From contig MU831910.1 in NCBI GenBank assembly GCA_029204225.1, forward strand, positions 1 to 64,000: 64,000 nucleotides of DNA. Reading direction: 5' to 3'. The notes under the pieces are model-generated. The model saw nothing but the letters and a program-made list of their open reading frames with translations, had not been told where the DNA came from and did no database searches. A program made the position numbers and the translations under genes. Source of the DNA: Diphasiastrum complanatum (taxonomy: Eukaryota; Streptophyta; Lycopodiopsida; Lycopodiales; Lycopodiaceae). Below are positions 1 to 62,097 of the stretch, piece after piece. Position 1 is the first letter of the stretch; each line of letters opens with the position of its first letter.

Positions 1-1925
1 CTTAAGGTAGGAATTATTGATCCCATCTTCAGCAGTGAATGAGTGTCTCCCATTGTTGTAGTTCCAAAGAAGACGATTGGCAAGAAAGATCACCATCCAT
101 TACCCTTCACGGATTCCATTCTAGACTAGGTTGATGGACAAGAACATTATAGTTTCTGTGATAGTTTCTTTGGCTATAATCAACTTGGAGTAAGGAAGGA
201 GGATCGATCAAAGACCATGTTTACTATAGATTGGGGCACACAATAGAATGCCTTTTGGTCTTTGTAATGCGCCAGAGACTTTTCAGAAAATTATGATGTT
301 TATTTTTTACTGCGTTCCTAAGAACAATTTTCAAAATTTTGATGATTTATGTGTTTATAGTGATATCAAGCCTCACATTCAGAAACTGAAACTTACATTG
401 CAGAGGTGTCGAGACACTTGTTTGTCACTTCACCCCGAAAAATGTTTTTTCAGTATGAGATAAGGTATACTTATGGGGCATAGAATATCTAGCAGAGGAA
501 TAGAAGTTGACAAAGATAAAGTCGAAGTTATAAAGAATCTATTAATATCAACAAATCTACATGAGCTAAGAGATTTCTTAGGACATGTATCGAAGATTTA
601 TCCAGAATCATGCCTCGATTGTTGCAGCCCTTACACAATTACTTAAGAAACAAGTCGCTTATATTTGGACGACAAAACAATAGGAAGCATTCAAAGAACT
701 TAAGCAGAAGTTGATTAATGCTCCAATTCTACAACTGCCTAACTGGACAATACTATATATTTCATAGTTATGTTGATATGTCAGCATTTGCTATTGGTGT
801 ATGTTTGAACTAGACGGACAAACAGAAGAAAGACCATCCAATATACTATGCTAGTAGACAGCTCAGTTCCTCAGTGAGAATTTATTCGGCAACAGAAAGG
901 GAAGCACTTGGAATGATTTTTACTATAAAGAATTTTTGGCATTATTTGCTGGGATATGTTTTTATATTCCATGTAGATCATTATGCTTTGAAGTATCTTG
1001 CTAATAAACCTGATTTATCTGGCCGAATTGCTCGCTGAGTTTTGTTGCTACAAGAGTTCACTTATCAAGTTGAGCTTCGTCAAGGAAAATATCATACTAA
1101 TGGTGATTATCTTGCACGACTTAGCATAGGAAAAATTGAAGAACCAATTAATGATGACTTTCCAAATGAGAATTTATTTGAGATATCATCTTCGAATTCA
1201 TTATATAATATCAGATATATTCTAAAGGATATGACTTGGAGAAGAAGACAATATTTCAATGTAAAGTTGCACCTTGTACCATTATCAACAATGTTCTGTA
1301 TAAGCTTGGTGCAGATAATTAGTTAAGAAGGTGTCTTGAAGCTGAAGATATTCCAAAGGGTATTCGATCCTTACATTCAGAAGATGTCGGTGGACATTTC
1401 GCCATGAAGAACACTATTAGTAAGATATTGACCGCCAAATAATGGTGCTACAATGTTTAAGAATGTCTCTAATTATATTCGATCTTGTGATCCATGCCAG
1501 AGATATGGTAGACCAACGAAAGCTATGAATTGGCCGTTGATGCCAATCATACCACTTGCACCATTTGAAAAGTGGGGGATTGACTTTGTCTCTCCAATCA
1601 AGCCAATGACCTGACACACTAGGTGTCGATATATTTTGGTTGCGACGGATTATGCAACAAAGAATGTGGAAGCTAAAGCAACGAAACAAAACGATGCGAA
1701 AACTGTCACAACTTTCATATTCAAATCTCTAATCACACGTTATGGTTGTCCTCTTGTAGTCAGTGGTCGTGGTACTCATTTTCTAAACGATACAATACGA
1801 CTGCTGACAAACTATTTTCTAATCAAACACAGAAAGACAACCCCTTATAATTCGAAAGCCAATGGATTGACTGAGAGAGCAAATGGAATATTATGCAAGA
1901 TCCTAAATAAGATCACTATTGCACA
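1..1925 (+). pseudogene. Ty3/Gypsy pol remnant: RT, RNase H, integrase
   Basis: This is a decayed pol region of a Gypsy LTR retrotransposon whose 5' part lies off the left edge. Read across several frames it shows, in order: an RT segment with MPFGLCNAPETFQ (from 248) and an FDD box in NFDDLCVYSD; an RNase H region ending in a VELRQGKYHTN-type motif (about 1071-1100); an integrase zinc-finger remnant with SCDPCQ (about 1487-1504); and an integrase core (about 1570-1915) with WGIDFVSPI, a GRGTHF box and GLTERANG. Frameshifts and in-frame stops are scattered throughout, and the second catalytic Asp of integrase appears replaced (SGRGTH where SDRGTH is usual), so it is dead. At about 1915-1926 the Gypsy similarity stops and Copia similarity begins on the same strand with no LTR between them. 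Family assignment is secure; lineage is not resolved. Confidence 0.85.
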
Positions 1926-2139
1926 TTGTGTATGCTTTGTGCATGTGCCTCTAGAAACTAGGAAGAAGGAAGATCCTAGTGCAGTAAAAGGAATTTTTGT
2001 AGGATACGCATCCACTAAAAAAGCATACAAGATTTATTTGCCCTCTACTGACAAAAATGTTGTTAGTAGAGATGTGATCTTCCATGAAGATCAGAAATTT
2101 AACTTGGATGATGCACAGATCAAGGAGACTCGTGCATGA
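1636..2139 (+). pseudogene. Chimeric Gypsy/Copia integrase frame (167 codons)
   Basis: This single open frame starts inside a Gypsy integrase core and ends as a Copia integrase C-terminus. Residues 1 to about 94 (MVATDYATKNVEAKAT to ERANGILCKIL) match the Gypsy core, including the TTPYNSKANGLTERANG block around the third catalytic residue. From about residue 100 the frame reads as Copia: CVCFVHVP, GIFVGY, KAYKIY and VVSRDVIFHED, the classic block after the Copia DDE core. No intervening LTR, PPT or PBS is visible, so this is a recombination junction and not a nested insertion. The product would have one integrase body with the wrong C-terminal domain. The frame stops at 2139, while the Copia sequence continues after further stops. 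Confidence 0.75.
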
Positions 2140-3843
2140 TCAACCATCAATATTGATGTTGTTCAAGAAGAGGTGAGGCCGAGGCTTGAGGAAGAGCAAA
2201 TGCAAGCTACCATAGCCAAAAGATCTACATGAGCAAGATCTGAGCCAAGGAGGCTCATTTATGATGAAGAAGGAAGGCAAGTGAAAGGTGAAACTTTCTA
2301 TCATGCACTTTTTATATCAGATGAAGAGCCTAAGGATGTCCAAGAAGCTTTTCAATCCAAGGAGTGGGTTGAAGCAATGACCCAAGAATTTGAAGCCTTG
2401 ATGTCAAATAACACATGGGAGCTTGTGGAGCCACCAAACAACATGCATGTGATTGGATGTAAGTGGCTATTCAGAATCAAGTATAATTGTGATGGATCTA
2501 TCAATAAGTATAAAGCAAAACTTTGTGCCAAAGGCTACTCACAGATCAAAGGTCTTGACTATGAAGATACCTTTGCACCAGTTGCAAAGATGGTAACAAT
2601 TCGAATACTCATCTCTCTTGCATGTTTTCACAAATGGAGTATGTTCCAACTTGATGTTTCTAATGCATTTCTCAATGGTTACCTTGACCAGGAGATTTAT
2701 ATGGAGCAGCCTCCAGATTTTGTGAAGGAAGGTGATGAATCAAAAGTTTGTCTTTTGTTCAAAAGTCTGTATGGACTGAAACAGACACCAAGGTCTTGGT
2801 ATGCAAGGCTCAATTCCTATCTCATATCACTCGGATTTTGTCTAAGTGAATATGACCCTTCTCTGTATTATAAGTTTGCAGATAACTTTGTAATTATTCT
2901 TCTCATCTATGTACATGATATCATTCTTTGTGAAAACAATGAGAAGTTAGTTGAAGAAACTAAGCATGCACTTGGTACTGAGTTTAAGATGCAATACTTA
3001 GGAGTTCTTCACTATATTTTAGGCCTTGAAATAGATTTTTGGAAAGGTCATGCATTTATAAGCCAAAGTAGATATGCACTTTCCATGCTCAGGAAATTCC
3101 ACATGGAGAACTGTAAAGACATAGATACACCTATGGAACACACTGTAAAAGTTTCTATTAGAGATGATGAAAAATCCTTTGAGGACATCACTCTTTATAG
3201 GAGCCTTATTGGCTCACTTATTTGGTTAACAGTGACTAGACCTGATCTAAGCTTTTGTGTTCATAAGCTAAGTCAACACATGCAGGATCCAAAGTTATAT
3301 CATTTGAAGTTGGCTAAAAGAGTCTTGAGGTATATATCTTCTACCTTGGATTATGGACTATTCTATGAAGGAGAAGATCTAACTTTGATTGCTTTTTCAG
3401 ATTCAGATTTTGCAGGAGACAGGTTGGATAGAAAATCCACAAGTGCTTACACTATATTTCTTGGAGGAAATTTGATTTCTTGGCTATCAAAGAAGCAGGC
3501 AACTATTTCCTTATCATCCTATGAAGCTGAATACAAATCTCTTACAACCACAACAAAGGAGGATTTATGGATCAAAAGGCTACTTTTGGAGCTAAAGTGT
3601 TATGCAGATGAAGATTTACCAATTATCAAGAATGATAACATTTCTGCTCAGGCTCTTGCAAATAATCTAGTCTTTCATGCAAGGAGCAAGCATATTGAAG
3701 TGGCTCATCATTTTGTAAGAGAAAAAGTCATTGGGAGAGAGATCTCATTGGAGCATGTTTCATCTTCAGATTGTGTTGCAAATCTTCTCACCAAGCCTCT
3801 ACTCAAGAATGTATTTATGAAGATGAGGTCTAACCTTGGCCTA
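1926..3843 (+). pseudogene. Ty1/Copia pol, 5' part: integrase end, RT, RNase H (interrupted)
   Basis: This is the Copia polyprotein remnant from the integrase C-terminal block through RT and RNase H. The longest frame, 2281-3843, is uninterrupted for about 520 codons. It has the RT entry (SKEWVEAMTQEFEAL, NTWELV, GCKWLFRIKY), TFAPVAKMVTIR, QLDVSNAFLNG, YGLKQTPRSWY, and an RNase H with SDSDFAGD, LSSYEAEYKSL, DNISAQ and the RSKHIEVAHHFVRE block. The RT catalytic box reads YVHD instead of YVDD, so polymerase activity is probably lost. Two stops (2137-2139 and about 2230) separate it from the integrase part. After NLGL at 3843 the frame is cut by a 7.7 kb insertion. The apparent stop at 3847-3849 belongs to the inserted LTR, and the true last codons are at 11557-11586. 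Confidence 0.9.
3839..3843 (+). repeat. Target-site duplication (gccta), left copy
   Basis: The 5 bases gccta directly precede the LTR start TGTTGA. The same gccta follows the last base of the inverted LTR at 11551. Five-base duplications are what LTR-retrotransposon integrases leave. Confidence 0.85.
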
Positions 3844-4670
3844 TGTTGAGAGTATTCCCAACAAAGTGTAAATAAATATAATCCTCCAATAAAATGTGTT
3901 GCGAGGGCATGGCATCCTAAGTGTATAAGCCCATGGCCCAATGAGCACGCAATTGAAGTTGTAAATAAAATAAACTTGACTTGGGCCTTGTAATTAAAAT
4001 AAACTAGAGGCCCAATGTCATTTTTTAACTTAGAGATCACGTTTTAGAGTTGGGTCCAAATTGGGACTTACATGAATCTTGTGATTTCTAATGTACTTTT
4101 TGTGGACCCTTGGATCAAGTTGGGTCCAAGATAAATGGTTAGGATCATTGTGAATATTAGCCAATAAGATTGAGGGGCAAGGGCCTTCCTTATTTTATAA
4201 AAAGGCACCATTTGTACACTATTTCCATGCTTAATGAGAAGGAGAAAACTCTACCATTTTTGGAAGAGAAGCATCCTCATTTGCTATTCACTACTTGCTA
4301 TTGCTCTTGGTTGTATTTTCTATTGCTTTCTATTTCCATGTTTTATTGTTTGCCATAGTGAATGTTTTTCCATTAGCAAGCATAAGGAGCATTTGAGCTA
4401 ACCTCCACCCTCACTCTCTTTCTCTCTCTTTCTCTTCTCTTCTCAATCTCTTCTTCTCCATCCCTTCCCTTCAACCAAAACTATGCTGAATGTTAGTGTA
4501 GAGGAGTAGAGTTAAAGAGGAGTAGTATAGTGGTGAGTAGAGTTAAGGGAGAAAGTAGGAAATTAAGTAAAAGTAGCATCTATGCATAGTTAAGCACCTA
4601 TCTAGTGATAGGTGCTTAACATATTTGTTGACAGGCGGAAGGGCTATACTACGAAAGATCTTCGACCCCA
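3844..4670 (+). repeat. LTR-A, left copy (forward)
   Basis: This 827-bp LTR begins TGTTGA and ends ACCCCA. Its first 20 bases contain a small inverted repeat (TGTTG/CCAACA). Promoter-like elements are present: ccaat at 4161-4165 and a TATA box in ttttataaaaagg at 4192-4204. A pyrimidine-rich CT/TC stretch lies at about 4410-4460. It is immediately followed by a PBS at 4674. The reverse-complement copy lies at 10738-11551. Confidence 0.85.
4161..4205 (+). promoter_or_regulatory. LTR-A core promoter (CCAAT + TATA)
   Basis: A CCAAT motif at 4161 sits about 30 bp upstream of a strong TATA sequence (ttttataaaaagg, 4192-4204) in the middle of LTR-A, where a Pol II promoter for element transcription is expected. 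The inverted copy keeps the TATA on the minus strand (about 11195-11208), so transcription from both ends would converge. Confidence 0.5.
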
Positions 4671-4673
4671 TAG

Positions 4674-4691
4674 TGGCGTCGTTGGCGAGGA
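4674..4691 (+). other. Primer-binding site, tRNA-Asp type
   Basis: TGGCGTCGTTGGCGAGGA lies 3 bases after the LTR-A end and matches the widespread plant Gypsy PBS complementary to tRNA-Asp (TGGCGCCGTTGCCGGGGA) at 15 of 18 positions. It marks LTR-A as a 5' LTR of a Gypsy-type element reading rightward. No equivalent PBS follows the inverted right copy. Confidence 0.65.
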
Positions 4692-5039
4692 TAGGTTTCC
4701 ACTAACTAGTTTAGTTGCATTTTAGCTATCTTCATGTTTTTTAGAGTAGTTTAGGTAGATTTTTGGGAGTTTAGAGTTAGTTTTCTATATTTTTTTGTGT
4801 TTGGACTGTTCACAGCTAGCAGAGGAGGTGTGAGAGGGTAGAGGAGGCCCTGAACAATCTCTAAGGGCTTGAAACCCAAACCAATCATCCAAAAAACTCA
4901 AAAAAACACACCAATCTGCATTTTGGAGGGAAAAAAACAAAAAAAAAAACTCATCAGATTTTTATATCTCCAGAATCAATGGGAATTAACCCTTGCATGA
5001 CTAGCAGCAACTCCAGGGTACTATTCTGCAAGTTCAATT
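4692..5039 (+). other. Untranslated leader after LTR-A
   Basis: This is non-coding sequence between the LTR-A PBS and the point where minus-strand Gypsy coding similarity begins. It holds T-rich and A-rich runs and no open frame of note. It is probably the truncated 5' leader of the LTR-A element. Confidence 0.4.
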
Positions 5040-7831
5040 AGCTCTGTTGAATCAGGTAAAATGATACCTTCCATTATACTGGCCTTGGTATGGCCATGAA
5101 TTTTGCGCATGGCTGTCTCCATAGATTTATTCCTGTCATCATTCTGGTTCCTATTTCTAAATTCTTGTTCGGATTCGTCAGATTCGTCATCAGTATCTTC
5201 ATTAGAATCTTCAGAATTCTTGTTTGCAATTTTTGATTCATTAGATATATCAGCTTCTGCATTGCAGACATCGAAGAATTCTTCTTTGTCATCCGATAAA
5301 TCATTATTCTCATAGCATTCGAAATAATTAAGTTCGATGTATGATGCATTAGAGAAAATATTAAGGGCATAAAAAGAATCTTAAAAAATAAAACTAGTGT
5401 CGGACATAGGATTTCGCCTTCATATCGATCACAACTCCAGGTAATAATTTGTTTCGCTAGCTTTCCACGATTATTAGTCTTACCAATTTGGAATCTTGGT
5501 TCTCTGGACTTCCAATGTACACTTGCATTGGACTGATAAAGCCAAGGTCATCCAATTAAAAAGGGTAAGAAGACAAACCAAGTGGTTTGATAACAATAAA
5601 GTTCATCGTAAAAGGCTTGGCTTGAATATATACAGTCACGTATTTTAGTTCGCCAACAGGTTTTCTTCGTGCTGAATCAGCCAACTTGATATTTCGTTGA
5701 GTTGGTTGAATGTTAGTCAAACCTAAGGCATGTGTGGTGTCTTCAGTTATAATATCACACTCAAACCTGAGTCAATCGGCACATTTTCAATTAGGCATCC
5801 AGTAATAGTAACATCGATTTCTGGTGCGTCGAGGTCTCCCAGATCAATAGATAAGACACCAACATCTGGTAGAGAAATTTGTTTCTTCTTCTTAGGGACG
5901 AAGAGACCTTTTAACTATTTTCGAAAAAAAGTGTTGTTTGCCAACAATTGTTCGAAAGTTATATTAGGATGAAGAGAGCCAATATCAGTTACAATGTCAT
6001 AGTCTTTCGTCTTTGCTTTTGAAATAGGCTTGTCAATCGTGGCATCAAAAAGTTTGGTCTTCGTGATTTCAACGTCCCCTTTCTCGAATGTGACTTTCTT
6101 CTCTATAGAAGCTGTCTAAAATTCAGAATTGATAATCTCTTTAGCTTTTGCAGAAATATCCTTCGAAAATAGTTTGGTTTCATCACGATCATAGTCAGGA
6201 TGGGCTTTTTTAAGATCTTTTTTCGAAATAGATTTGTCCAAAGATTTCTTCTTCGAGAAATTTCTCCGATTCTTTGAAGAAACTTTTGAGTCAGGTTTCG
6301 AGGAGCTTTTGCTTCTCGTGGTAACTTTGAATAACTTTTTGACATTGTTTGGCCAGGAATGGTCAATTGTCTTCATTGATTTGTCTTCAACGACATCAAT
6401 CATCTGCACAACAACATCTGTCGAAGGTTTTACTTTTGTATCAACAACAACAACAGGTGTAGCTACATACTGGTACTTTGGTTGCGGCTTCTACAGTTGT
6501 GGACAGTCAAAATATTGGTGGCTTGTGGTACCCTGAACGTAATTAGTAGTCGCATCATCTTAAAATATAAAGAGCACTTCCTGAAAAAGATCTTCAACAT
6601 ACTTTACGTTCACAGATTTGCAGTCTTCTTGAGAATGTCCAGATGTACCGCATTTTGTACACCATAGTCCTGAGTTCGAAGAAGAAGCTTTCGATCTTTT
6701 GTCTGCCACTTCTAAAATTTGAACTTTCAGATCATTGAACTTCTTATTAAGATCAGCCATATTACTTCTGCAAAGCTTTTCAACTTTAGAGGTTGCAGCC
6801 TTGTCCTCAATACTTTTGCTATCTTATTTTTGTTTGGACTTTTGTTTCTTTCTTCGATTTGCATCATCAATTTATGTGTCTGATGAATTACTAGAATCAG
6901 ATTCAAAACTGAAAGAACTTGGACTAAATTCAGATTTAGATTCGTCTTCACTGTCGCTGAAGTCATGCTTAGACTTTTGAGTTCGTCTGGTGGAACGTCT
7001 TTTGTGTACTAACTTGGAAGTCTCATAGTTCTCAACGCTTGTATGACTGCTGATAAAGAAGTCATATCTCCTTGTTTGCAATATCGATCAACTTTTGGTT
7101 GTAAACCTACCAAAAACCACTCGACTTGAGTTTCGACAAGATACTCTCCCGTAGTTTTCCAATTAGATTCTTTACTTTTCGTGTATACCTTCGAAGAGAT
7201 TCTATACTCTTATTTTGCACATTGTTAAGTTGTTTGTTAACTCAAGATGAATAACCAATTTTTCTGAACTGGTTTAAAAACACATCTTTCAATAGTAACC
7301 AGGTAGCCACACGTCTTGGTTCAACTTGGCTGTACCATATGCATGCTTGCTTTCTCAGAAGACCAGGAAAGATTCATAGCTTGTCAGCATCAGCACCTTT
7401 GTTGTTCGAGTTGGCAATTGACTCGAATTGTGAAACATAACTGTCAGCATCATCTGAAGATGCTCTTTTAAAATAATCGTATTTGATCATCGAGATTGAA
7501 GTGAAACGGGGAGCAGGGCCTTCCATAATCGGCTCTAGTTCTAGTTCAGAATCTGGATTTGAATCAGACTCAGGTTCTGATTCTAGATCAGATTCTAGAT
7601 TTGGATTAGGATCAAGATCAGGAACTGGACTTACAACTTCAGAACCTGGTTCAGCTGCAGCAGAAACTTCAGGATGCAATATTTCAGGTAAACTAACAAG
7701 ATTAAGAAGATTATCAAAGAAAGTTTCTTTACAAAATTTGATTCTCCTCTTTGAAAAAAGTCCTCAAGTCTTTTGAAAAACTCTTCTCGAAGTTTCCGAT
7801 ATCTTTCAAGTCTGGAAGCTCTCTCTAACAT
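5040..7831 (-). pseudogene. Ty3/Gypsy gag-protease remnant (minus strand)
   Basis: Read on the minus strand from 7831, this contains a Gypsy gag: a basic N-terminus (MLERASRLERYRKL), a Ser/Glu/Asp-rich linker, the capsid-type stretch PAPRFTSISMIKYDYF and SYVSQFESIANS (about 7374-7530), a Lys/Ser-rich region, and one CCHC knuckle CTKCGTSGHSQEDC (about 6615-6660). A retropepsin-like segment follows, with the active-site motif PIDSGLSVIL (about 5750-5790) and a downstream LADSARRKPVGEL block (about 5640-5690). An acidic spacer (about 5150-5340) leads to the cut at about 5040. Multiple frameshifts and stops make it non-functional. It belongs to a different Gypsy family from LTR-A, judging by its PBS and coding sequence. 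Confidence 0.7.
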
Positions 7832-7881
7832 GCACTAAGAATGGACATGGAGTTGTCAGTTTGGTATCAACTTTATTTGGC

Positions 7882-7901
7882 TATCCTCAGCAATGGCACC
7901 A
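7882..7901 (-). other. Primer-binding site of the minus-strand Gypsy
   Basis: On the minus strand TGGTGCCATTGCTGAGGA(TA) lies about 50 bp before the gag start. It is a tRNA-Asp-type PBS differing from the common TGGCGCCGTTGCCGGGGA at four positions, all transitions. It places this element's 5' LTR at higher coordinates. Confidence 0.6.
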
Positions 7902-7912
7902 AAATTGGCATA

Positions 7913-8194
7913 TGTTGTGATATACCAACATAGAAATGAAAAATTTGTGTAGTATTTAATGTCAAACCCCAGGAGGATGGCACTTAAAAGCTGATTTATT
8001 GATACAGTTCTGACTTATTTAAATGAAATGAAGTCGGGTGTTATTATGGTTGTCAAACAAACATTTTACAAATAACCAGTATTACTTTTGTTGTGTGTGT
8101 GATGATGGTAATTTTTTGAATAACAATCTTCCTCTGTTGAATTGAATGAAAAGCATTCTACAAGTGAAATGTTATTATAGTAGCACGAATGAAC
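7913..8194 (-). repeat. Truncated 5' LTR (LTR-B) of the minus-strand Gypsy
   Basis: The segment starts TGTTGTGATATACCAACA on the plus strand, which is an LTR 3' end (TG...CA) read on the minus strand, just outside the PBS at 7882. It runs up to the start of the Copia LTR at 8195, so it is probably truncated by that element. No second copy is visible in the window. Confidence 0.4.
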
Positions 8195-8833
8195 TGTGAA
8201 AGATTCAACTAGTTTCATCACATTTTGCTATATTTTCATATTTGGCATATTGAGGCCAAAACTTGTTTTATACTTAGAGGTTGACTTTTCAAAGTTCATC
8301 AGTCTAAATTTCATTTGAATAAACACTTTTTGAAAGTGTGAGAAAGTTAGAATGCAAGTTTGAGTAGATTCAAATTTGAATAGTGAATCTAGACCCAAAA
8401 TTAGTAGGGTTAGCATTTTGGTGAGAAAGCCAAGTGGCCAAATAGGGTTTGGACCTATTATAAAAGGATGTAACTCGTGGAGAGAGCTATCTTCTCTCTT
8501 CTCTATCTCATTTCATGCTTATACATGGTCCTCTTGGGTTCTACTATCCTTGGTGCACTATCTTGGTGATTGCTTGCAATTCTATGTGTATGATGATCTA
8601 TATTTACTATTTTTGGATCCACACGTGTGAAATACAGTAGCTTGCTGGTTTTGTATAGACAGCAATAGTACTTTATCATTTCATTCAAGTTTGATCAAGT
8701 TCTATTGGTGTTTGCATCTCATTTTGTATGTAGATGCTGATTTTTCTACATTCGTGAGATTGGTAGTATATTTCTCTTTCTAATCAGAGATCATTCAAGT
8801 AGATTGGATCTTTAGGATCTGAAATCTTTCACA
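8195..8833 (+). repeat. Copia LTR-C1 (5' LTR)
   Basis: This 639-bp LTR starts TGTGAAAGATT, ends ATCTTTCACA and is directly followed by the initiator tRNA-Met PBS. The ends form a short inverted repeat (TGTGAAAGAT / ATCTTTCACA). A 10-bp palindrome CACACGTGTG sits at 8620-8629. It resembles the LTRs at 54682-55311 and 62792-63352 in its start and in the internal palindrome position. The 3' LTR of this copy is absent. Confidence 0.8.
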
Positions 8834-8845
8834 TGGTATCAGAGC
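8834..8845 (+). other. Primer-binding site, tRNA-iMet
   Basis: TGGTATCAGAGC immediately after the LTR-C1 end is the standard Copia PBS complementary to the 3' end of initiator tRNA-Met. Confidence 0.9.
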
Positions 8846-9415
8846 TTGTGTTTTAGATTATGAAGGAGAAATCAGATCTATCAATGATTTGGTGAAGATA
8901 TCAAGTCTAGAGCATGCTAGAGAGAATTCTACACCAAAATCGAGTTTTTTGCTTTTGTAAATCAAAACACTATATAGGTCAATATACTTGATCAATTCTA
9001 ATTTTTGAATTCACATTCTGGATTTGGCCAATTTTTGAATCATTGAATCAGCCTAAGTGGTGTCTTATAGAATGCATATCAAATTTTTAGCATTTGCATG
9101 TTGAATTGGAATAGTCAATTTTTTGTGATTTTGTCAAGACCCTAATTTTGATTGGATCTCTAGATAGTGAGGTGCTGGACTTCATTTGAGTGTGTTTCAA
9201 TCTTAGGAAATGGAAAAAGTCATTAGATTGAAGATAGATCATAGGTTGATCAAGATTCCATGATTCTATGTGTTGATTTGCTTGGTATAAGTGCTAGAAG
9301 AGAATTTTGAGATAGTTTCAAATCTTGGTGATTTCTTTTGAAAGCATTTTTTGTTGTTCAAATGAGTTCTTTGTGCATTGAAACAGGTTGAAAGAGAAGA
9401 TCAGGTCATTGCTAC
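8846..9415 (+). other. Copia 5' leader
   Basis: This is AT-rich sequence between the PBS and the gag start. Its length (570 bp) and lack of open frames fit a Copia untranslated leader. Confidence 0.6.
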
Positions 9416-9961
9416 ATGGCAACCTCAATTGGAGTCATGTTGGAAGCCAATGATAGGCTTATATCAAGTAACTATTCATTATGGAAAGTGAGGATGGAGT
9501 CACTTCTTGAGATGAATGATGTTTTGGATATTGTTGTAGGTTTGGAGGAGAGACCAGCAACACAACAAGATCAATTGAGGTATGATAAGAGGGCCAAGAA
9601 GGCTCTACACATGATAAAGATGAATGTTACCAATGAACTTTTCAAGGAAGTTGGTAAGTGCACATCATCTTTGGAAGCTTGGAATTCATTGAAGAAGCTT
9701 TATGAATCCAAGTCTACATCTAGAGTGTTGACTCTTAGAAGGCAAATATGTTCTTGTTTGCAAAAGAATGAAGAAAGTCCAAGTACCTTTGTTTTGAGAA
9801 TGAAAGCATTGAATGATGAGTTAGCTTGCATAGATGAAAGCATTAAGGAAGGAGAGCTTATTCAAGTCATTCTTAATGGCTTGTTGGATGCTCATGCTAA
9901 ATTGTTCAAAGTATTGCTATTCAAAAGACTTTGTACAAAAAATGGGAATTACAAGGATTGA
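9416..9961 (+). pseudogene. Copia gag N-terminal part, truncated
   Basis: This open frame of 181 codons begins MATSIGVMLEAND in good context after the leader. It carries the Copia gag (UBN2-type) signatures SNYSLWKVRMESLL, ALHMIKMNV, SLEAWNSLKKLYES, RVLTLRRQI and LIQVILNGLL. Similarity stops near residue 160 (about 9900), where the frame runs into Gypsy sequence and ends at a stop. The capsid C-terminus, zinc knuckle, protease, integrase and RT are missing. The start and first 160 residues look intact, so a short Gag fragment could still be made. Confidence 0.8.
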
Positions 9962-10737
9962 AGCCAGTCAGATTCGCCATCAAACTGGCAGATCAATCCT
10001 GTGTGAAACCAAAAGGTGTAGTTGCTGATATTCCCATAAAGATAGCAGGCATGTAGTATGTGATTACTTTTGTGGTCATGGATATACCTGAATCTCCATC
10101 TGCATACCGTATTTTACTGGGAAGACCATGGTTGAGGGCTACGCAAGTAGTACACAACTGGGATACAAGAAAACTCACCTTTGAGGACAGAGAACAGGCT
10201 GTAAAGGTAGAACCAGCCACATGGGCGATGAAACCTATTGCACCCAAAGCTGATGACTGATCATCCATGACAAATCATACGATTGATCGCCCAAGGCCAG
10301 CCAAGGGAGGTCACTATCATTCATAGAGGGATGTCATGAGATGGACGGATGCATTAGCAACTATTTACTGCCAGGCATGTCAATATGAATTAGATCTTGA
10401 ACCGAGTACATCTTCACCCAAATGTTACACTATGGACACACCAATCACATTTGGAGTAAATATGATAAACGTAGCATGGCTGTCAGCGGAGCCGATTGAG
10501 AACCTAGTGGACGATGATCTAGTCCCTTGGCAACATGCTCTAACTTATAATAAGGAGATTGAGCTGACTGATGAACAAGTCCTATACCACATGGACCCAG
10601 ATTGTTACAGAACCAAGAAGGTACCAGCTCAACCACCACAAAGCTCTGATATGGCGAAAGTCTCAAGGATCGGACCACCCAAGACACCTGCGAATAAGAA
10701 GAATCAGTTGAAGCAACGCTACAACTAGGTGATCCAA
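9905..10737 (+). pseudogene. Gypsy aspartic protease region
   Basis: Joined directly to the Copia gag is a Gypsy retropepsin-like domain: VRFAIKLADQS, VVADIPIKIAG, then after a TAG stop (10054-10056) FVVMDIPESPSAY and LLGRPWLRATQVVHNWD (about 10060-10170). The following frame 10336-10728 is the spacer between protease and RT, with WLSAEPIENLVDDD. The RT is not reached, because the sequence stops at the inverted LTR-A. It may be the LTR-A element's own protease, since it has the orientation expected for an element whose 5' LTR is at 3844; that link is inference. Confidence 0.7.
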
Positions 10738-11551
10738 TGGAGTGACCTATCTTTCGTAGTATAGCCCTTCCGCCTGTCAACAAAGGTTAGATCACTAGAT
10801 AGGTGCCTAACTATGCATAGATGCTACTTTTAGTTAATTTCCTACTTTCTTCCTTGACTCTACTCACCACTATACTACTCCTCTTTAACTCTACTCCTCT
10901 ACACTAACATTCAGCATAGTTCTGGTTGAAGGGAAGGGATGGAGAAGAAGAGATTGAGAAGAGAAGAGAAAGAGAGAGAAAGAGAATGAGGGTGGAGATT
11001 AGCTCAAATGCTCCTTATGCTTGCTAATGGAAAAACATTCACTATGGCAAACAATAAAACATGAAAATAGAAAGCAATAGAAAACACAACCAAGAGCAAT
11101 AGCAAGTAGTGAATAGCAAATGAGGATGCTTCTCTTCCAAAAATGGTAGAGTTTCCTCCTTCTCATTAAGCATGGAAATAGTGTACAAATGGTGCCTTTT
11201 TATAAAATGGGGAAGGCCCTTGCCCCTCAATCTTATTGGCTAATATTCACAATGATCCTAACCATTCATCTTGGACCCAACTTGATCCAAGGGTCCACAA
11301 AAAGTACATTAGAAATCACAAGATTCATATGAGTCCCAATTTGGACCCAACTCTAAAAGGTGATCTCTAAGCTTAAAAATGACATTGGGCCTCTAGTTTT
11401 ATTTAATTTACAAGGCCCAAGTCAAGTTTATTTTATTTACAACTTCAATTGCGTGTTCATTGGGCCATGGGCGTGCAGAATGCCATGCCCTCGCAACACA
11501 TTTTATCGGAGGATTTTATTTATTTACACTTTGTTGGGAATACCTCCAACA
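10738..11551 (-). repeat. LTR-A, right copy (inverted)
   Basis: This is the reverse complement of the LTR at 3844-4670, read on the minus strand from TGTTGGAGGTATTCC (ending at plus position 11551) to about CACTCCA. Clear homology covers 10749-11551; the last 11 bases toward 10738 are weak. The TATA box is retained on the minus strand near 11200. There is no recognisable PBS beyond it. Confidence 0.85.
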
Positions 11552-11556
11552 GCCTA
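11552..11556 (+). repeat. Target-site duplication (gccta), right copy
   Basis: This matches 3839-3843 exactly and is followed by the continuation of the interrupted Copia frame. Confidence 0.85.
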
Positions 11557-11586
11557 ATTTCAAAGTCTATGTTGATAGGAACATGA
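11557..11586 (+). pseudogene. Last codons of the interrupted Copia
   Basis: Continuing the frame that stopped at 3843 gives I-S-K-S-M-L-I-G-T-stop. This matches the LGVISKAM and LGVLSKSM C-termini of the Copia copies at 57602 and 63348. This short stretch proves that the 7.7 kb segment is an insertion. Confidence 0.85.
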
Positions 11587-11600
11587 ATTATAAGGAGGAC
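11587..11600 (+). other. Polypurine tract
   Basis: attataaggaggac lies between the Copia stop codon and the LTR start TGTGAAG, in the normal position of the plus-strand primer. Confidence 0.65.
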
Positions 11601-12329
11601 TGTGAAGATTATTAAAATATTATCTTCCTATCTCGAGTTTGGGGTCATGTCCATAGTGATTTCCACTAGAATTCATGTTGTACATAAGAGGAGTGTGAAT
11701 TGAGCACATATCCTTCTAGTGTAGCTCGGATTTGAGTTAGATAGGTTCAATTATGATGACATGCAGATGTTTAGATAGCATGCAAAGTTTTACTGTATGC
11801 ATGCAAGCCACATGCAATCAGTGCATGCAACATGCAAAGTAGTTTCTGTGATCTACACATGTCTAGGCAGTTTTATGAGTTGACATGCAGTACATGCAAC
11901 ATACATGCATGCAGTTACACATGTGGATCTCTGGTAGGTGAATTAGTTCAGTTAAGTGGACTTTTCATGCAACTCCACTGTAGGAATTCGAGTCTCTCTC
12001 ATGTAGGGAAAGTTGGGCATGTTTTGCCATATTGTGAATATTGAGATTTTGGTGTTTTGGACTCATTCTCTCTCTACGCGAGTTTTCTATGCTTGACTTT
12101 CTCTCTCTACCCGAGAGCAGCCTCTTTTTCCCATACTGAACACTTAGAATTATTTCTGACATTCATTTCTCATAGTGAAGAGTTGGATTTTTTCATCAGA
12201 GGTATGCCATTGTGCTCTTGCCTTAGATTTTTCAAGCATACTGTTCTTTGATCAATCTTGTGCAATCACAACACCTCAGTCAGATCTTGTAGGGTGTGGG
12301 ATGAAGTTCACACTGCTAAAAACTTCACA
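11601..12329 (+). repeat. Copia LTR-D, shared by two internal regions
   Basis: This 729-bp LTR (TGTGAAGATT...AACTTCACA; the ends form an inverted repeat TGTGAAG/CTTCACA). It has a PPT and Copia 3' end on its left and a PBS, leader and gag on its right. It is therefore both the 3' LTR of the left Copia and the 5' LTR of the right one. It contains many ATGCATG/CATGCAT stretches (11760-11915). Confidence 0.8.
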
Positions 12330-12341
12330 TGGTATCAGAGC
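12330..12341 (+). other. Primer-binding site, tRNA-iMet
   Basis: TGGTATCAGAGC immediately follows LTR-D. It defines a second, right-hand Copia internal region. Confidence 0.9.
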
Positions 12342-38410: not shown

Positions 38411-38566
38411 TTGTCGCTTGTTGCACTTGAAGTTGATAGCACAAGCTTCATCAAATTGAATAAGGGTAATAAAGAGACGGATGTCAACATCAGTAAAGGT
38501 ATTACCAATGAGTTAGCGATGCTTTTCAAACAGGCTTTCAATGACGACGAGCTCAAGATGAATACG
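38411..38566 (+). other. Coding-like host sequence at the chromovirus insertion site
   Basis: An open frame reads MSLVALEVDSTSFIKLNKG ... LAMLFKQAFNDDELKMNT up to the TSD, with coding-like composition. Beyond the inserted element the frame would continue a further dozen codons to a stop. The product is not recognised; it could be an exon of a decayed host gene or another repeat. Confidence 0.25.
38562..38566 (+). repeat. Target-site duplication (atacg), left copy
   Basis: atacg precedes the 5' LTR. The partner appears as cgtat at 44890-44894, reversed by the later inversion. Confidence 0.75.
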
Positions 38567-39031
38567 AGTTACGGACTACAATATACAGGCCTACTGGGCT
38601 ACTCTGCATATATTTCGCAAGCCTCTTTACATTTACTTTTGGTTGTGTATATTTCTGGTTACGCATTTTGTATTAGTCATGTACAGGCCTTAGAGCCTTT
38701 TTATATGCTTATGACCCGCACTGGGTCCTTTTTTATGACATTGACTGGCCTTGGGCCCTTATTATATGGTTATATGTGGAGTGGGGGCCCGTAGGAGGGC
38801 GCACTATTTTTCCTCCACATTTTGCCTCCCTGTACTTTTGAATTCCTATTTTAGGGTTCATTGGTAGGGTATTTATAGGGGAATTTGTACACTCATTTTT
38901 CAGATTATTGATTGGTATTGCTTGGGCTCTTCGTGGGAGAACCTATTGTCTTGTCTATTGCTTGTAGGGCTTTAGTCTATTGCTGTCTTTTATGCTTCAT
39001 TGATTCAACACCTGAGATTTTGATCATAACT
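38567..39031 (+). repeat. Chromovirus 5' LTR (465 bp)
   Basis: It begins AGTTACGGAC and ends ATCATAACT, directly before the PBS. The ends match each other as AGTTA/TAACT and do not follow the usual TG...CA rule. The boundaries are fixed by the TSD, the PBS and the PPT of the other copy. A TATA-like tatttatagggg lies at about 38870. Confidence 0.8.
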
Positions 39032-39043
39032 TGGTATCAGAGC
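39032..39043 (+). other. Primer-binding site, tRNA-iMet
   Basis: TGGTATCAGAGC follows the LTR with no spacer. Confidence 0.9.
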
Positions 39044-44251: not shown

Positions 44252-44267
44252 CTTTATAGCCAGGGAG
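44252..44267 (+). other. Polypurine tract
   Basis: atagccagggag directly precedes the 3' LTR start AGTTACGG and confirms the non-TG LTR boundary. Confidence 0.6.
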
Positions 44268-44429
44268 AGTTACGGACTACAGGATACAGGCCTACTGGGC
44301 TACTCTACATATATTCTGTAGGCCTCTTTACATTTACTATTGGTTATGTATATTTCTGGTTACGCATTTTATATTAGTCATGTACAGGCCTTAGAGCCTT
44401 TATATATGCTTATGACCCGCACTGGGTCC
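44268..44429 (+). repeat. Chromovirus 3' LTR, first 162 bp (forward)
   Basis: Matches 38567-38728 up to actgggtcc and then breaks off into unrelated sequence. Confidence 0.85.
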
Positions 44430-44894
44430 CTGGATATCCCATGACTCATAAATAAAGGATAGCACCACAATGATACACATACACATGTACATCAACCATT
44501 CACAAACGTCTCAAGAGTTTAACCATGTCCAGGATCACGTTCCTATCTGTGATGAAACAGTAGCAAAAGAGGATCAAACAGAGACCTACATTCCTATGTT
44601 TGAAAATGACTCGATGTTGCATTGTGCACTAATGTTAGTCAATTGCAAGATTGTACTGCCAAACGTGTCGTGGTAATATGTTTTGGATGTCACAAAAGAG
44701 TGTGCAATTGTATCCAAAATTTTAGCTTAGAATACGGAACAGAGAATTCTGCAGTATTGGACTATGTACTGAAATCTACAGTGCACCATTAATCAGTCTA
44801 TTTTGCTTACGCGTCCTTGCCACCCATGTACTGCAGTGGCTTCCCTCCTAAGCTGATGCTGCGTTATTTGTTGCAGTATATTTATTTGGCGTAT
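44430..44894 (-). other. Host flank trapped in the inversion
   Basis: This is unique sequence between the two LTR parts. Read on the minus strand it follows the TSD directly, so it is the original right flank turned around. A 68-codon frame at 44470-44676 is not recognised. Confidence 0.6.
44890..44894 (-). repeat. Target-site duplication (atacg, inverted), right copy
   Basis: cgtat on the plus strand is the reverse complement of atacg at 38562-38566, adjacent to the inverted LTR end. Confidence 0.75.
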
Positions 44895-45196
44895 AGTTAT
44901 GATCAAAATCTCAGTGTTGAATCAATGAAGCATAAAAGACAGCAATAGACTAAAGCCCTACAAGCACTAGACAGGACAATAGGTTCTCCCACGAAGAGCC
45001 CAAGCAATACCAATCAATAATCTGAAAAATGAGTGTACAAATGCCCCTATAAATACCCTACCAATGAACCCTAAAATAGGAATTCAAAAGTAAAGGGAGG
45101 CCAAATGTGGAGGAAAATAGTGCGCCTCCTACAGGCCCCCACTCCACATATAACCATATAATAAGGGCCCAAGGCCAGTCAATGTCATAAAAAAGG
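44895..45196 (-). repeat. Chromovirus 3' LTR, last 302 bp (inverted)
   Basis: The reverse complement matches 38729-39031 from ttttttatgac to the LTR end ATAACT with about 3 percent difference. Together with 44268-44429 it rebuilds a full LTR of about 464 bp. Confidence 0.85.
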
Positions 45197-56905: not shown

Positions 56906-57587
56906 TGTAAAAATTACAGCAAATAAGGATCCTAAAACACTTGAAATGATGAGGAAAACAATAGATTATGATTTCATAAGATTAGCACAAGTTGAACCAT
57001 CAAAATCCATCAAAAACCTATGCTTGAACCTCACTAAATGGCCCAAATCCTTGAAGAAGGCTTCACACGTGTGAAAGTACGGCCTCCCACAGTCTGAGTA
57101 CTGTACACCAGACCTACATTCAATCCTATAATCATTAGTAATCACAAGTACTCAAACAATTATGAACATAGAGAGCAATTGCACCATTATGAGAGAAAAA
57201 ACATGAAATTGCTTGATTGATTTTGGTGAGATATCATCACCTATATATACAAGATCCATCATGGTTTTGGGCAGGTATGAGTAGCCCTAAACCTATCCCT
57301 AATGCTAATTTTGGTGGATCTTTCATCCCTACCAAGTTAGGGTTGGAATCTTGGAGATCCCTCAACAATGCAAAAATTACCAAAAATAGCTCCTATTTTT
57401 TCTCCCTTGTATCTAAGCATAATTTGGACTCATTCCAAAGGTTCTAACACTTAGGTCTACTTGAGAACATCCTTATGAATGGAATCCTATGCTATTTGGC
57501 ACGTGTGACAAGCCACATCATGACCATTTAACTATTTACAAGTCATATGACCAAAACTAGTCAAGCTAGAATTGTGAATTTTTAACA
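56906..57587 (-). repeat. 3' LTR of the young Copia
   Basis: 682 bp. On the minus strand it starts TGTTAAAAATTCACA and ends GTAATTTTTACA. It contains TTCACACGTGTGAA at 57062-57075. Identical to the other LTR except one base. Confidence 0.95.
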
Positions 57588-57600
57588 CTCCTCCTCACTA
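57588..57600 (-). other. Polypurine tract
   Basis: On the minus strand tagtgaggaggag immediately precedes the 3' LTR, between the stop codon and the LTR. Confidence 0.8.
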
Positions 57601-57601
57601 T

Positions 57602-60600
57602 CTAGCTTGGTTCAATCATTGCTTTACTAATCACTCCAAGTGATGATCTGAACTTCATAAAAGGTGTCCTTTGAAGTGGTTTAGTAAGTAGATCAGCTAC
57701 ACATTCATTGCTTGGAACATGCTCCAAAGCAATCTCCTTGGCTTGCACCATTTCTCTCACAAAGTGATGGCATATCTCAATGTGCTTAGATGCAAGGTGT
57801 TGGGCTGATATATTGTCATTGTAGATGATTGGTGCCTCCTCTGAATCCATGATCTTTAGCTCCACCAATAATCTCTTGATCCAAAGTACCTCCTTTGTAG
57901 TGGTTGTCAAAGCTTTGTACTCGGCCTCGGTTGAAGATAGAGATATAGTTTCTTTCTTTTTTGAAAGCCATGAAACCACACCTTCTCCTATGAAAGTTGA
58001 ATAGGCACTTGTTGATTTCCTATCCCTCTTGTCCCCTGCAAAATCTGAATCACTAAATGCATGAAGGTTAATCACATCTCCTCTATATAGAATCCCAAAA
58101 TCCAATGTACCCGAGATGTATCTTAGAATCCTCTTAGCCTTTTTCCAATGGATATTCAATGGCTTTTGCATGGATTGGCTCAACCTACATACACTAAAGC
58201 TAAGATCTGGTCTAGTTATAGTGATCCACATTAAGGAACCTATAAGTTGCCTAAACAAAGTGATGTCCATGAAGGATCTTTCATCATCTTCATTTGGCAC
58301 TTTTACATCTTGCTCCATTGGTGTGTCAACACTTTTGCATACTTCCATCTTAAACTTCTTCAAAAGACTTTGAGCATAGTTTACTTGACTTATAAAGATA
58401 AAATCAGACCCTCTAAGTACTTCTATGCCTAAGATGAAGTGAAGACACCCTAGATCTACCATCTTGAACTCTAAGGATAGATCTATCTTGATTTTTTCAA
58501 TACCATCAACACTATTTTCACTAATGATGATGTCATCTACATAAATGAGTAAAAGTACAATACCAACATCATCAAACTTAATGTAAAGAGTGGGATCATA
58601 TTCACTTTGAACAAAAGAAAGTGAAATAAGATAGCAATGTAGTCTTGAATTCCAAGATCTCGAGGCTTGCTTCAAGCCATAGATGCTTCTTTGGAGATGG
58701 CATACTTTGTTCTCCATTCCATGCTTGATGAACCCTTGTGGCTGCTCCATATAGATATCCTCTTCCAAAAAACCATTCAAGAAAGCATTAGAGACATCCA
58801 TTTGACATAGAATCCATCCAAAATGTGATGCAAGTGCAATGATTAGTCTTATTGTGACCATCTTGGCCACGGGTGCAAAAGTTTCCTCATAGTCTATCCC
58901 TCTCTCTTGAGCATAACCTTTTGCAACTAATCTTGCTTTATGTTTGTTAACACTCCCATTTGCATTCAACTTAAGCTTGAAGACCCACTTGCATCCTATT
59001 ACATTCCTTTGAGGTCTCTCAACAAGCAACCAAGTTTCATTCTCAATCAAGGCATCATACTCATCCAACATAGCTTTATACCATTCTTTGGAGTTCAATG
59101 CATCTTCAACATTAGACGGTTCTTCAAAACTAGATAAAGCATAAGAAGTGGATGAGATACCCTCAACTTGCTGTCCTTTGCCTTGATATGTGAGCCTTGA
59201 TGGCTCCACTTTTGCCCTTAAAGATCTCCTTGGTGTGATAGGTGGGTTTGGTGCTTGCTCCTCCATGAGCTCCTCCTCAAAACCAAGATCTTGCTCCTCG
59301 GCTAACATGACAACATTAGTATCCACAAATGCATCCAGCTTATAAAGTTTGTCAAGTCTAGTGCCCTTAGCCACTATCTTACCCTTCTTCTTGATGAAAC
59401 ATTCATTTGAAGCAAAGTCAACATTGAAATCATTGTCTACCATTTGGCCAACACTTAGTAGATTCTTTGTTATTGTAGGAATGTACAAAACACCTTCTAT
59501 GTTGATCTTTTTGGAAGATCCTAAGCAAAGGGGAATGCTACCAACTCCTTCAATCTTACAAGCTTCATCATTTGCTGTATAGATAGACTTTATAGGTCCA
59601 TCATAAGATAAGAGAGAAGAGAAAAACTCCCTTTTACTAGTCATGTGTGAACTAGCACCCGAGTCAATCCACCAAGGATCTTCTCCTTTGAAGCTTGTTG
59701 AAGAAAATATGGACATCATGAGAGAGTCCTCATGTGAACTCTCCTCCTCCTCCTCTTTGCTCATGTTGGCTTGGCTTTGATCTTGCTTCCTCTTGAAGCA
59801 TTCCGAGGCATAATGCCCCATCTTGCTGCAATAGTAGCACTTCACCTTTGATTTGTCCTTCTTGACTTTGGTGGTTGATGGAGATGCCTTTGGGGGTCCT
59901 TCTTGATCCTCAAGCTTTGTAGACTTCTTGAATGTTGATCCTTTGCCTTTGGACTTTCCTTTGCCTTTGGTGAAGAGAGCTTGGTCATCTCCACCTTGGA
60001 TGGAAATCCTATCCATCCTCTCTTGCATTTGGCTCCTTCTTGATTCCTCGGCCATGAGCGTGCCTTGGAGTTCTTCAAGTATGGGTAGCTTACCCATAAT
60101 TGCATATCCCTGAACCAAATTGTCAAATTCAAAGCTTAGTCCATTCAATATGAGTTGAACAAGCTCTTCATCCTTGATAGGGTCACCTATAAAGGCTAGC
60201 TCTTTGTTCAATTCCTTTACTCTTAGGACAAAAGTATGTGCACTCTCTCCTTTCTTTTGATAGCTTCTGTAGATTTGATTCTTCAAAGCTAACATTCTAG
60301 TTTGGTTCTTGGATTCATAGACCTTTTGCAAAGTCTCCCAAGCATCTTGAGCTGAAGTGCAATCTCCTACCTCTCTTAAGAGTTCATTTGCAACATTCAT
60401 TTTTATGCAATGTAGTGCAACATTGCACCTCTTGATGTATTTGGCTTTTTCTTGAGGATGAATAGGTTCACCCTCCTTACCATTTACAATTTCCATCAGA
60501 TCTTGCATGATCATGATAGATTCCATTCTAACTTTCCATATGGAATAGTTAGTTTTGTTGAGCCTTTCATTAGTATCCAAAAGATATGCATTTATAGATG

Positions 60601-60604
60601 CCAT
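57602..60604 (-). CDS. Copia Gag-protease-RT-RNase H polyprotein lacking integrase
   Basis: One open frame of 1000 residues starting at ATG 60604 (MASINAYLL) and ending just before the PPT. Domains: UBN2-type Gag (residues about 15-200, NYSIWKVRMES, LVQLILNGLS); CCHC knuckle C256-C259-H264-C269; protease with D314-S-G-A in WWIDSGASSH; pre-integrase tail RLDKLYKLDA (416-425). Then, at about residue 437, comes an abrupt switch to the post-integrase linker (NPPITPRRSLRAK, 452-465). RT follows (about 505-760), catalytic YVDD at 688-691, then RNase H (SDSDFAGD, STEAEYKAL, DNISAQ). Copia polyproteins are usually about 1300-1450 residues; the missing part equals the integrase finger plus DDE core. 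The frame is preserved across the gap. RNase H also lacks about 8 residues after DNISAQHLA (residue 938), where relatives read NPVFHAR. Gag, protease and RT motifs look intact. Confidence 0.95.
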   Translation of the reverse strand: MASINAYLLDTNERLNKTNYSIWKVRMESIMIMQDLMEIVNGKEGEPIHPQEKAKYIKRCNVALHCIKMNVANELLREVGDCTSAQDAWETLQKVYESKNQTRMLALKNQIYRSYQKKGESAHTFVLRVKELNKELAFIGDPIKDEELVQLILNGLSFEFDNLVQGYAIMGKLPILEELQGTLMAEESRRSQMQERMDRISIQGGDDQALFTKGKGKSKGKGSTFKKSTKLEDQEGPPKASPSTTKVKKDKSKVKCYYCSKMGHYASECFKRKQDQSQANMSKEEEEESSHEDSLMMSIFSSTSFKGEDPWWIDSGASSHMTSKREFFSSLLSYDGPIKSIYTANDEACKIEGVGSIPLCLGSSKKINIEGVLYIPTITKNLLSVGQMVDNDFNVDFASNECFIKKKGKIVAKGTRLDKLYKLDAFVDTNVVMLAEEQDLGFEEELMEEQAPNPPITPRRSLRAKVEPSRLTYQGKGQQVEGISSTSYALSSFEEPSNVEDALNSKEWYKAMLDEYDALIENETWLLVERPQRNVIGCKWVFKLKLNANGSVNKHKARLVAKGYAQERGIDYEETFAPVAKMVTIRLIIALASHFGWILCQMDVSNAFLNGFLEEDIYMEQPQGFIKHGMENKVCHLQRSIYGLKQASRSWNSRLHCYLISLSFVQSEYDPTLYIKFDDVGIVLLLIYVDDIIISENSVDGIEKIKIDLSLEFKMVDLGCLHFILGIEVLRGSDFIFISQVNYAQSLLKKFKMEVCKSVDTPMEQDVKVPNEDDERSFMDITLFRQLIGSLMWITITRPDLSFSVCRLSQSMQKPLNIHWKKAKRILRYISGTLDFGILYRGDVINLHAFSDSDFAGDKRDRKSTSAYSTFIGEGVVSWLSKKKETISLSSTEAEYKALTTTTKEVLWIKRLLVELKIMDSEEAPIIYNDNISAQHLASKHIEICHHFVREMVQAKEIALEHVPSNECVADLLTKPLQRTPFMKFRSSLGVISKAMIEPS

Positions 60605-61402
60605 CTAGTCTCCTAATCAAGGACTTGACACAAATGAAAGTTACTTCTATTGATTTGATTGAAGGTCTACCTTATCTCACTTCTTAGGGACCTGAAAAGA
60701 TCAGTAATAGACTTCCTATAAAGATCTAAGAATGATCTCTAACAAAATCAAATCATAGAATACTAGAAACAATGCACTTGCTTGATTGAAGTAGACAATA
60801 CTAGTAGAATTGCCCCTCTTTCTATAAAGAACATTAAAGCTTCCAAATGATCTGATAAAGAGTGAATTTCAGCAACCTAATATACTTCCAAAATCACTTG
60901 TAAAAGATCTAAATGGAACTTAATGAGGATGCAACACAATCTACTATCCAATCACAAGCAAAAAATGATCAAAATTGATGAAAAATTGATCTAATTTGGT
61001 GCATAAGTCAAGCAATGGTTGGACTGAACCTAAATCACTCTAGGAGGTGCCTACTACACCTTAGAAAAGCCTTGAAGAGTCCCCAAAACTCTGATCTTCC
61101 CTCTCCTTGAATGCTAGAAAGCCTCCTCTATGAAATCACCTCCAAAACTCGCTTAGAAATCAATGCTTGGAGCAAGCAAAACTTGCTATCTTGGTAATGT
61201 GAATTGAATTCAACTTTGCCTCTGGTTTTAGACACCTAAACACCTGCAAATGAAGTCACACAACACCAATCTCCAATGTATTTGACTCACTTTGAGTTCT
61301 AGAATCAATACTAGATGCTAAGATCCAATCTACACAAGATTTAGATCAAAAATTGTGATCAAATTGAATGAAAACCAAGGATTTAGCTCATTTCAGCCTT
61401 TA
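60605..61402 (-). other. Young Copia 5' leader
   Basis: An untranslated region of about 800 bp between PBS and gag on the minus strand. No open frame of note. Confidence 0.7.
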
Positions 61403-61415
61403 GGCTCTGATACCA
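61403..61415 (-). other. Primer-binding site, tRNA-iMet
   Basis: On the minus strand TGGTATCAGAGCC directly follows the 5' LTR. Confidence 0.95.
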
Positions 61416-62097
61416 TGTAAAAATTACAGCAAATAAGGATCCTAAAACACTTGAAATGATGAGGAAAACAATAGATTATGATTTCATAAGATTAGCACAA
61501 GTTGAACCATCAAAATCCATCAAAAACCTATGCTTGAACCTCACTAAATGGCCCAAATCCTTGAAGAAGGCTTCACACGTGTGAAAGTACGGCCTCCCAC
61601 AGTCTGAGTACTGTACACCAGACCTACATTCAATCCTATAATCATTAGTAATCACAAGTACTCAAACAATTATGAACATAGAGAGCAATTGCACCATTAT
61701 GAGAGAAAAAACATGAAATTGCTTGATTGATTTTGGTGAGATATCATCACCTATATATACAAGATCCATCACGGTTTTGGGCAGGTATGAGTAGCCCTAA
61801 ACCTATCCCTAATGCTAATTTTGGTGGATCTTTCATCCCTACCAAGTTAGGGTTGGAATCTTGGAGATCCCTCAACAATGCAAAAATTACCAAAAATAGC
61901 TCCTATTTTTTCTCCCTTGTATCTAAGCATAATTTGGACTCATTCCAAAGGTTCTAACACTTAGGTCTACTTGAGAACATCCTTATGAATGGAATCCTAT
62001 GCTATTTGGCACGTGTGACAAGCCACATCATGACCATTTAACTATTTACAAGTCATATGACCAAAACTAGTCAAGCTAGAATTGTGAATTTTTAACA
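61416..62097 (-). repeat. 5' LTR of the young Copia
   Basis: 682 bp, see the 3' LTR. The CACACGTGTG palindrome is at about 61574-61583, which is about 160 bp from the LTR end next to the PBS. Confidence 0.95.

Follow-up and report, generated by a model that had tools for sequence, protein, structure and literature searches.

How does an LTR retrotransposon come to end in two LTRs of opposite orientation and yet lie between copies of the same five bases? The question is raised by positions 3844–11551 of the window, the 64,000-nucleotide stretch of Diphasiastrum complanatum DNA analysed here, which is the first 64 kb of a 97 kb contig (C392) in a genome of 1.74 Gb. On balance we think it probable that a Ty3/gypsy-type cDNA of a family designated LTR-A, carrying U3 at both ends, was inserted by integrase into a Copia element (Copia D) and was then split. 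Positions within LTR-A elements are given relative to a canonical copy at C5:73860210 (L065, L066), which is 11.9 kb long and has direct LTRs 2.5% apart (substitutions), U3 and U5 termini and the target-site duplication (TSD) CTAGC.

Two LTRs in opposite orientation

The two ends of the interval and their surroundings comprise the following features (basis in brackets).

1912–3843, + strand: pol of the host Copia D, with RVT_2 and SH3_retrovirus (Pfam scan)
3839–3843, + strand: left TSD gccta, in the 3' end of the host Copia D pol (sequence; paralog with unbroken site)
3844–4672, + strand: LTR-A, outer end U3, TGTTG (sequence, BLAST, homology to canonical copy)
4674–4691, + strand: primer binding site GTGGCGCCGTTGCCGGGGA, like that after other LTR-A 5' LTRs (sequence comparison)
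10749–11551, - strand: inverted LTR-A, outer end U3 (BLAST, homology to canonical copy)
11552–11556, + strand: right TSD gccta (sequence; paralog with unbroken site)
11557–11600, + strand: 3' internal end of Copia D with purine tract, to 11600 (paralog comparison)
11601–12329, + strand: Copia D LTR (copy alignment starts)
12330, + strand: Copia D primer binding site (sequence)

The original prediction held that the two ends belong to one LTR family in opposite orientation, and alignment bears this out: the LTR at 3844 and the one ending at 11551, once the latter is reverse-complemented, match at 94.6% across 818 aligned columns (BLAST), the divergence of the pair being about 4.5% (4.4–4.5%; substitutions). 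That both termini are of the U3 type is likewise supported, as TGTTG begins both outer ends and is the U3 start in 24 of 28 other LTR-A loci; the others start with TGTCG (L003 and L004) or TATTG (L010), or are damaged (L025). On the U5 side many LTR-A loci read close to CGACCCCACA and then enter the primer site, which was flagged by script in 14 of the 28 and is seen by eye in L003, L004 and L014 too. The site at 4674–4691 we take to be complementary to tRNA-Asp.

In an LTR tree based on a 36-row alignment the two LTR-A copies of the locus are not sisters. The two LTRs of the canonical C5 element are likewise not sisters, and the tree is therefore uninformative on a common origin of the pair. 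The left LTR contains a perfect palindrome at 4590–4619 (TTAAGCACCTATC...GATAGGTGCTTAA), which is absent from the other rows of the alignment except C9_left, a row from the same locus; it looks like a short strand-switch mutation.

A single target site in Copia D

A perfect gccta duplication in the host Copia element had also been predicted. Copia D on two contigs, C20 and C127, is uninterrupted from pol through the insertion site and carries that site once, as gtcta; the two copies are nearly identical over the 301 bases compared and may be one locus. Given such an uninterrupted paralog, the gccta flanks belong to a single site, one on either side of it, and the duplication is a true one of 5 bp. 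The start of the Copia D LTR at 11601 is drawn from copies whose matches begin at query positions 63–72, that is, at the LTR start or at most 9 bases before it. This is the case in 33 of 40 scored copies (from 3939 candidates); of the remaining seven rows, four come from this locus, one begins at 53 and two, those on C20 and C127, reach 25.

The single site bears on the idea that two LTR-A elements were inserted in opposite directions at the same position of Copia D, or beside 5-mers equal by chance, and recombined thereafter. The several pieces of Copia D at the locus speak for such a history; the flanks, however, represent one position, so that a double hit would be required, and a chance 5-bp match of the flanks is expected about once in 1000. 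We consider it very improbable.

Two further arrangements of Copia D were observed. At C20:30987394-30988238 and C127:91716-92560 a Copia D LTR lies between the internal 3' end of Copia D and a Copia D primer site with leader, in what looks like a head-to-tail tandem. At 1855–1912 of the window a gypsy-type integrase, for which the rve match falls short of Pfam's cut-off, is fused to the Copia D pol (SH3_retrovirus) in a single open frame of 174 codons; we read this gypsy-type pol as belonging to a neighbouring element, gypsy B.

The interior and its counterpart on C9

The interval 3844–11551 had been predicted to be a single element, a reading that we reject. Within the window's first 15 kb, homology to the canonical LTR-A copy is confined to 3844–5020 and 9928–11553, and the middle consists of a minus-strand piece of gypsy B and the 5' part of another Copia element, Copia F.

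4692–5020, + strand: LTR-A leader; the left half ends at canonical position 1680 (homology to canonical copy)
5021–7900, - strand: gypsy B gag and protease region (zf-CCHC below Pfam cut-off; rest by eye)
8190–8194, + strand: TSD TGAAC of Copia F (sequence)
8195–8833, + strand: Copia F 5' LTR (sequence comparison)
8834, + strand: Copia F primer binding site (sequence)
9392–9930, + strand: start of Copia F gag (sequence comparison)
9931–10748, + strand: LTR-A protease region, canonical about 4697–5515, in a copied block (homology to canonical copy)
10745–10752, + strand: junction of protease and inverted LTR-A (copy alignment)

The first 14.5 kb of the window recur on the minus strand of contig C9, at 99.86% and in the same layout. 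At C9:58810254, about 0.24 kb past the start of the window, an LTR-A leader-gag-protease region begins that extends from canonical position 1689 to 5515, in three BLAST pieces that overlap or are shifted at the leader repeat. It is followed by an inverted LTR (canonical 1319–509), gccta, the 3' end of Copia D and a Copia D LTR; C9:58813356-58815773 is homologous to 9928–12337 of the window. On C9 the junction with the inverted LTR lies at 58814178, and the inverted LTR meets gccta at 58814986/58814987. The left piece in the window spans canonical 511–1680 and the piece on C9 resumes at 1689. Their fit to the canonical copy strongly indicates that the two are complementary halves of a single element about 5.8 kb long, with one half of the original insertion in the window and the other on C9. 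A direct joining of the left half to the right half was seen neither in the window nor on C9. The most likely history is a single insertion of a compact element (LTR>-PBS-leader-gag-pro / <LTR), which had U3 at both ends, was flanked by a 5-bp TSD and was subsequently divided by inversion and local copying.

Proposed order of events at the locus

In the window the leader break adjoins the gypsy B protease, and the matching break on C9 adjoins a gypsy-type reverse transcriptase (RT; by eye); a gypsy RNase H comes next in the window, after the gypsy-type RT side of the break. The break that terminates the LTR-A leader also separates the protease of gypsy B from its RT, and a single inversion accounts for both. 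Such an inversion, with breakpoints in the LTR-A leader and in neighbouring gypsy B, would have split the element and brought the gag-protease region of gypsy B to 5021–7900.

Copia F has likewise been divided: TGAAC precedes the 5' LTR in the window and follows the 3' LTR on C9. Also on C9, Copia gag and pol come after a Copia D LTR and lead up to the 3' LTR of Copia F, and Copia D thus sits in Copia F; a TSD of Copia D's own within Copia F was not found at the locus. The right LTR of the window lies in a 2.4 kb block (9931–12329) that duplicates a block on C9 at 97% (3.0% divergence) and is joined to Copia F gag at 9930 and to the Copia D primer site at 12330.

Divergence decreases from the LTRs of Copia F (6.0%) through the LTR-A pair (4.5%) to the copied 2.4 kb blocks (3.0%), which mostly agrees with the order expected of the explanation that we prefer. 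The two copies of the Copia D LTR at the locus are 3.8% apart as against 4.5% for the LTR-A pair: Copia D, necessarily the older, diverges less, which can be reconciled with its age only if local copying has overwritten the copy in the window. We infer both the local copying of the block, inverted LTR included, which would have taken place during repair, and the order of the inversions.

Inverted 2.4 kb blocks at 97% could mislead an assembler, and the leader break at C9:58810254 is reached neither by C392, which starts on one side of it, nor by C1227, which ends on the other, and is visible on C9 alone, with no second contig covering it among those compared. Against an assembly error stand the agreement of C9 with the first 14.5 kb of the window, the recovery of the Copia F TSD on both sides, and contig C1227, which matches the C9 block at 99.3% from C9:58811252 onward, a stretch that takes in both the junction and the U3|gccta boundary on the right. 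An artefact of this kind is extremely unlikely.

Other Copia-type elements are found further along the window. One, on the reverse strand at 56906–62097, is young, with LTRs 99.6% alike, the TSD GATAC on both sides and a primer site at 61404. Another Copia-type LTR (38566–39031) is followed by a primer site at 39032; a second copy of this LTR at 44267–45196 has its first 163 bp in direct (93%) and its last 305 bp in inverted (97%) orientation.

The inner junction

In 26 other aligned copies of this protease region (L037–L062) the sequence runs past the junction point with CCGAAGAGGC or similar. Here the sequence switches to the inverted LTR, with 1–4 shared nucleotides depending on the source protease variant, and the inverted LTR lacks 13–17 nt of U5. 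The shared bases are too few to separate reverse transcription from DNA end joining.

Cleavage at the polypurine tract fixes the 5' U3 terminus of plus-strand strong-stop DNA, and the molecule extends across R and U5 as far as the primer site. The inverted piece has very nearly the extent of one LTR, which points to strong-stop DNA and away from the autointegration-like product that had been put forward as a source; we do not favour the latter. Under the proposed mechanism, reverse transcriptase would prematurely join plus-strand strong-stop DNA (U3-R-U5) to plus-sense pro sequence, the jump being conceivable in either direction. A single such jump would leave the protease region joined to an inverted LTR, the normal second strand transfer would provide U3 at the left end, and integrase would insert the linear two-U3 cDNA into Copia D in the normal manner, with a 5-bp TSD. 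From the termini and the TSD we infer that integrase used a U3 end on each side. That the locus is a natural, retained case in which integrase inserted a two-U3 cDNA made by splicing strong-stop DNA to internal sequence has, in our estimate, about an even chance of being correct. Insertion of a two-U3 cDNA by integrase was part of the original prediction, and the unbroken paralogous site, the 5-bp TSD, the two U3 termini and a junction resembling a template switch speak for it; the single span that went with it does not stand.

Two U3 ends, one 5-bp TSD and an inner junction with short homology would also result if the U3 ends of two cDNAs were integrated at one target and host end joining then linked their inner ends. 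Two-donor integration of this sort occurs in vitro, and the 4.5% between the LTRs suits two different source copies. It requires, however, a second donor cut 13–17 nt from its U5 end, where strong-stop DNA ends nearby anyway; a random break at most 17 nt from the U5 end of an 11.9 kb element has a probability of about 0.14% (arithmetic). We regard this route as unlikely.

The inverted LTR may instead be secondary, a normal direct-LTR insertion having suffered a break whose repair, by two template switches, put an inverted LTR at the 3' part. The inversions and the copied block show that error-prone repair acted at the locus; a switch at the tip is conceivable as well, since U3 ends and U5 ends both begin with a TGT(T)GGGG-like sequence. 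Yet to leave CA/gccta exact, one switch must have occurred in the last few bases and a second near the U5 end, and we find such a history rather unlikely.

The junction is spanned in four of the 40 scored matches (from 4589 candidates), one on C392, two on C9 and one on C1227, which are two places in three contigs, all at this locus; the other 36 stop at the junction (query 200–203). A strict pattern, consisting of a break just inside U5 and an exact 26-base LTR anchor, matched this junction alone, on C392 and C9. Because this pattern is tied to one break position and fails on copies in which the anchor is altered, the second C9 block among them, two-U3 insertions with other break points are compatible with the result. 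An amplified inverted-LTR family is not supported: the spanning matches among the 40 scored are all one locus, and the strict pattern adds none. The data suggest a single event and not a new class, with no sign of spread in the two-U3 form.

Relation to known elements

The canonical C5 copy has gag followed by RT and RNase H, which is the gypsy order (Pfam). RVT_1 lies above the cut-off, with Retrotrans_gag (23.7 of 24.1 bits) and RT_RNaseH_2 (29.7 of 29.8 bits) just below; rve was not found in the 5 of 20 C5 frames scanned, and the copy looks deleted there. LTR, primer site, leader, gag, protease and a 5-bp TSD (CTAGC on C5, gccta in Copia D) are common to the canonical copy and the insertion in Copia D. 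The canonical copy differs in its length of 11.9 kb and in its U3 and U5 termini, and the direct LTR orientation that it displays is absent from the insertion. A Pfam scan of 20 pieces, LTR-A making up only part of them, found no tyrosine recombinase.

DIRS-type elements are not known to have a TSD, whereas the LTR-A insertion has one. As described in the accessible part of PMC5633606, DIRS-1-type elements have LTRs inverted relative to each other, as here, together with a tyrosine recombinase and circular intermediates that are thought to be integrated; LTR-A is, in contrast, Ty3/gypsy-like, its C5 copy carries LTRs in direct orientation, and the insertion in Copia D is the one inverted case known. 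The nearest prior report found concerns complex LTR insertions in Triticeae, rice and maize that arose by template switching (Sabot and Schulman 2007, PMC1950507). Those insertions, too, have a TSD around a rearranged element, but they contain three LTRs and two cores, attributed to a template switch from the R region of one RNA to that of another, whereas the LTR-A insertion has two LTRs, the last inverted. Autointegration of retroelements, called a suicidal pathway in the accessible part of PMC2644782, likewise rearranges a cDNA upon itself; the LTR-A product differs in having been integrated with a TSD. No report of a two-U3 insertion was found in the literature searched, a coverage outside which most subscription journals fall, and the word 'inverted' occurs 0 times in the accessible text of the LTRtype paper (PMC5379124).

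If the preferred account is true, a plant Ty3/gypsy-type element possesses an integrase that can work in vivo on two U3 ends, and stable inverted-LTR insertions can arise through errors involving strong-stop DNA. Annotation tools that seek direct LTR pairs are expected to miss such elements. There would then be a route to compact inverted-LTR insertions that resemble DNA transposons, in which two LTR promoters would stand face to face, and the inverted LTR pair could supply double-stranded RNA to silencing.
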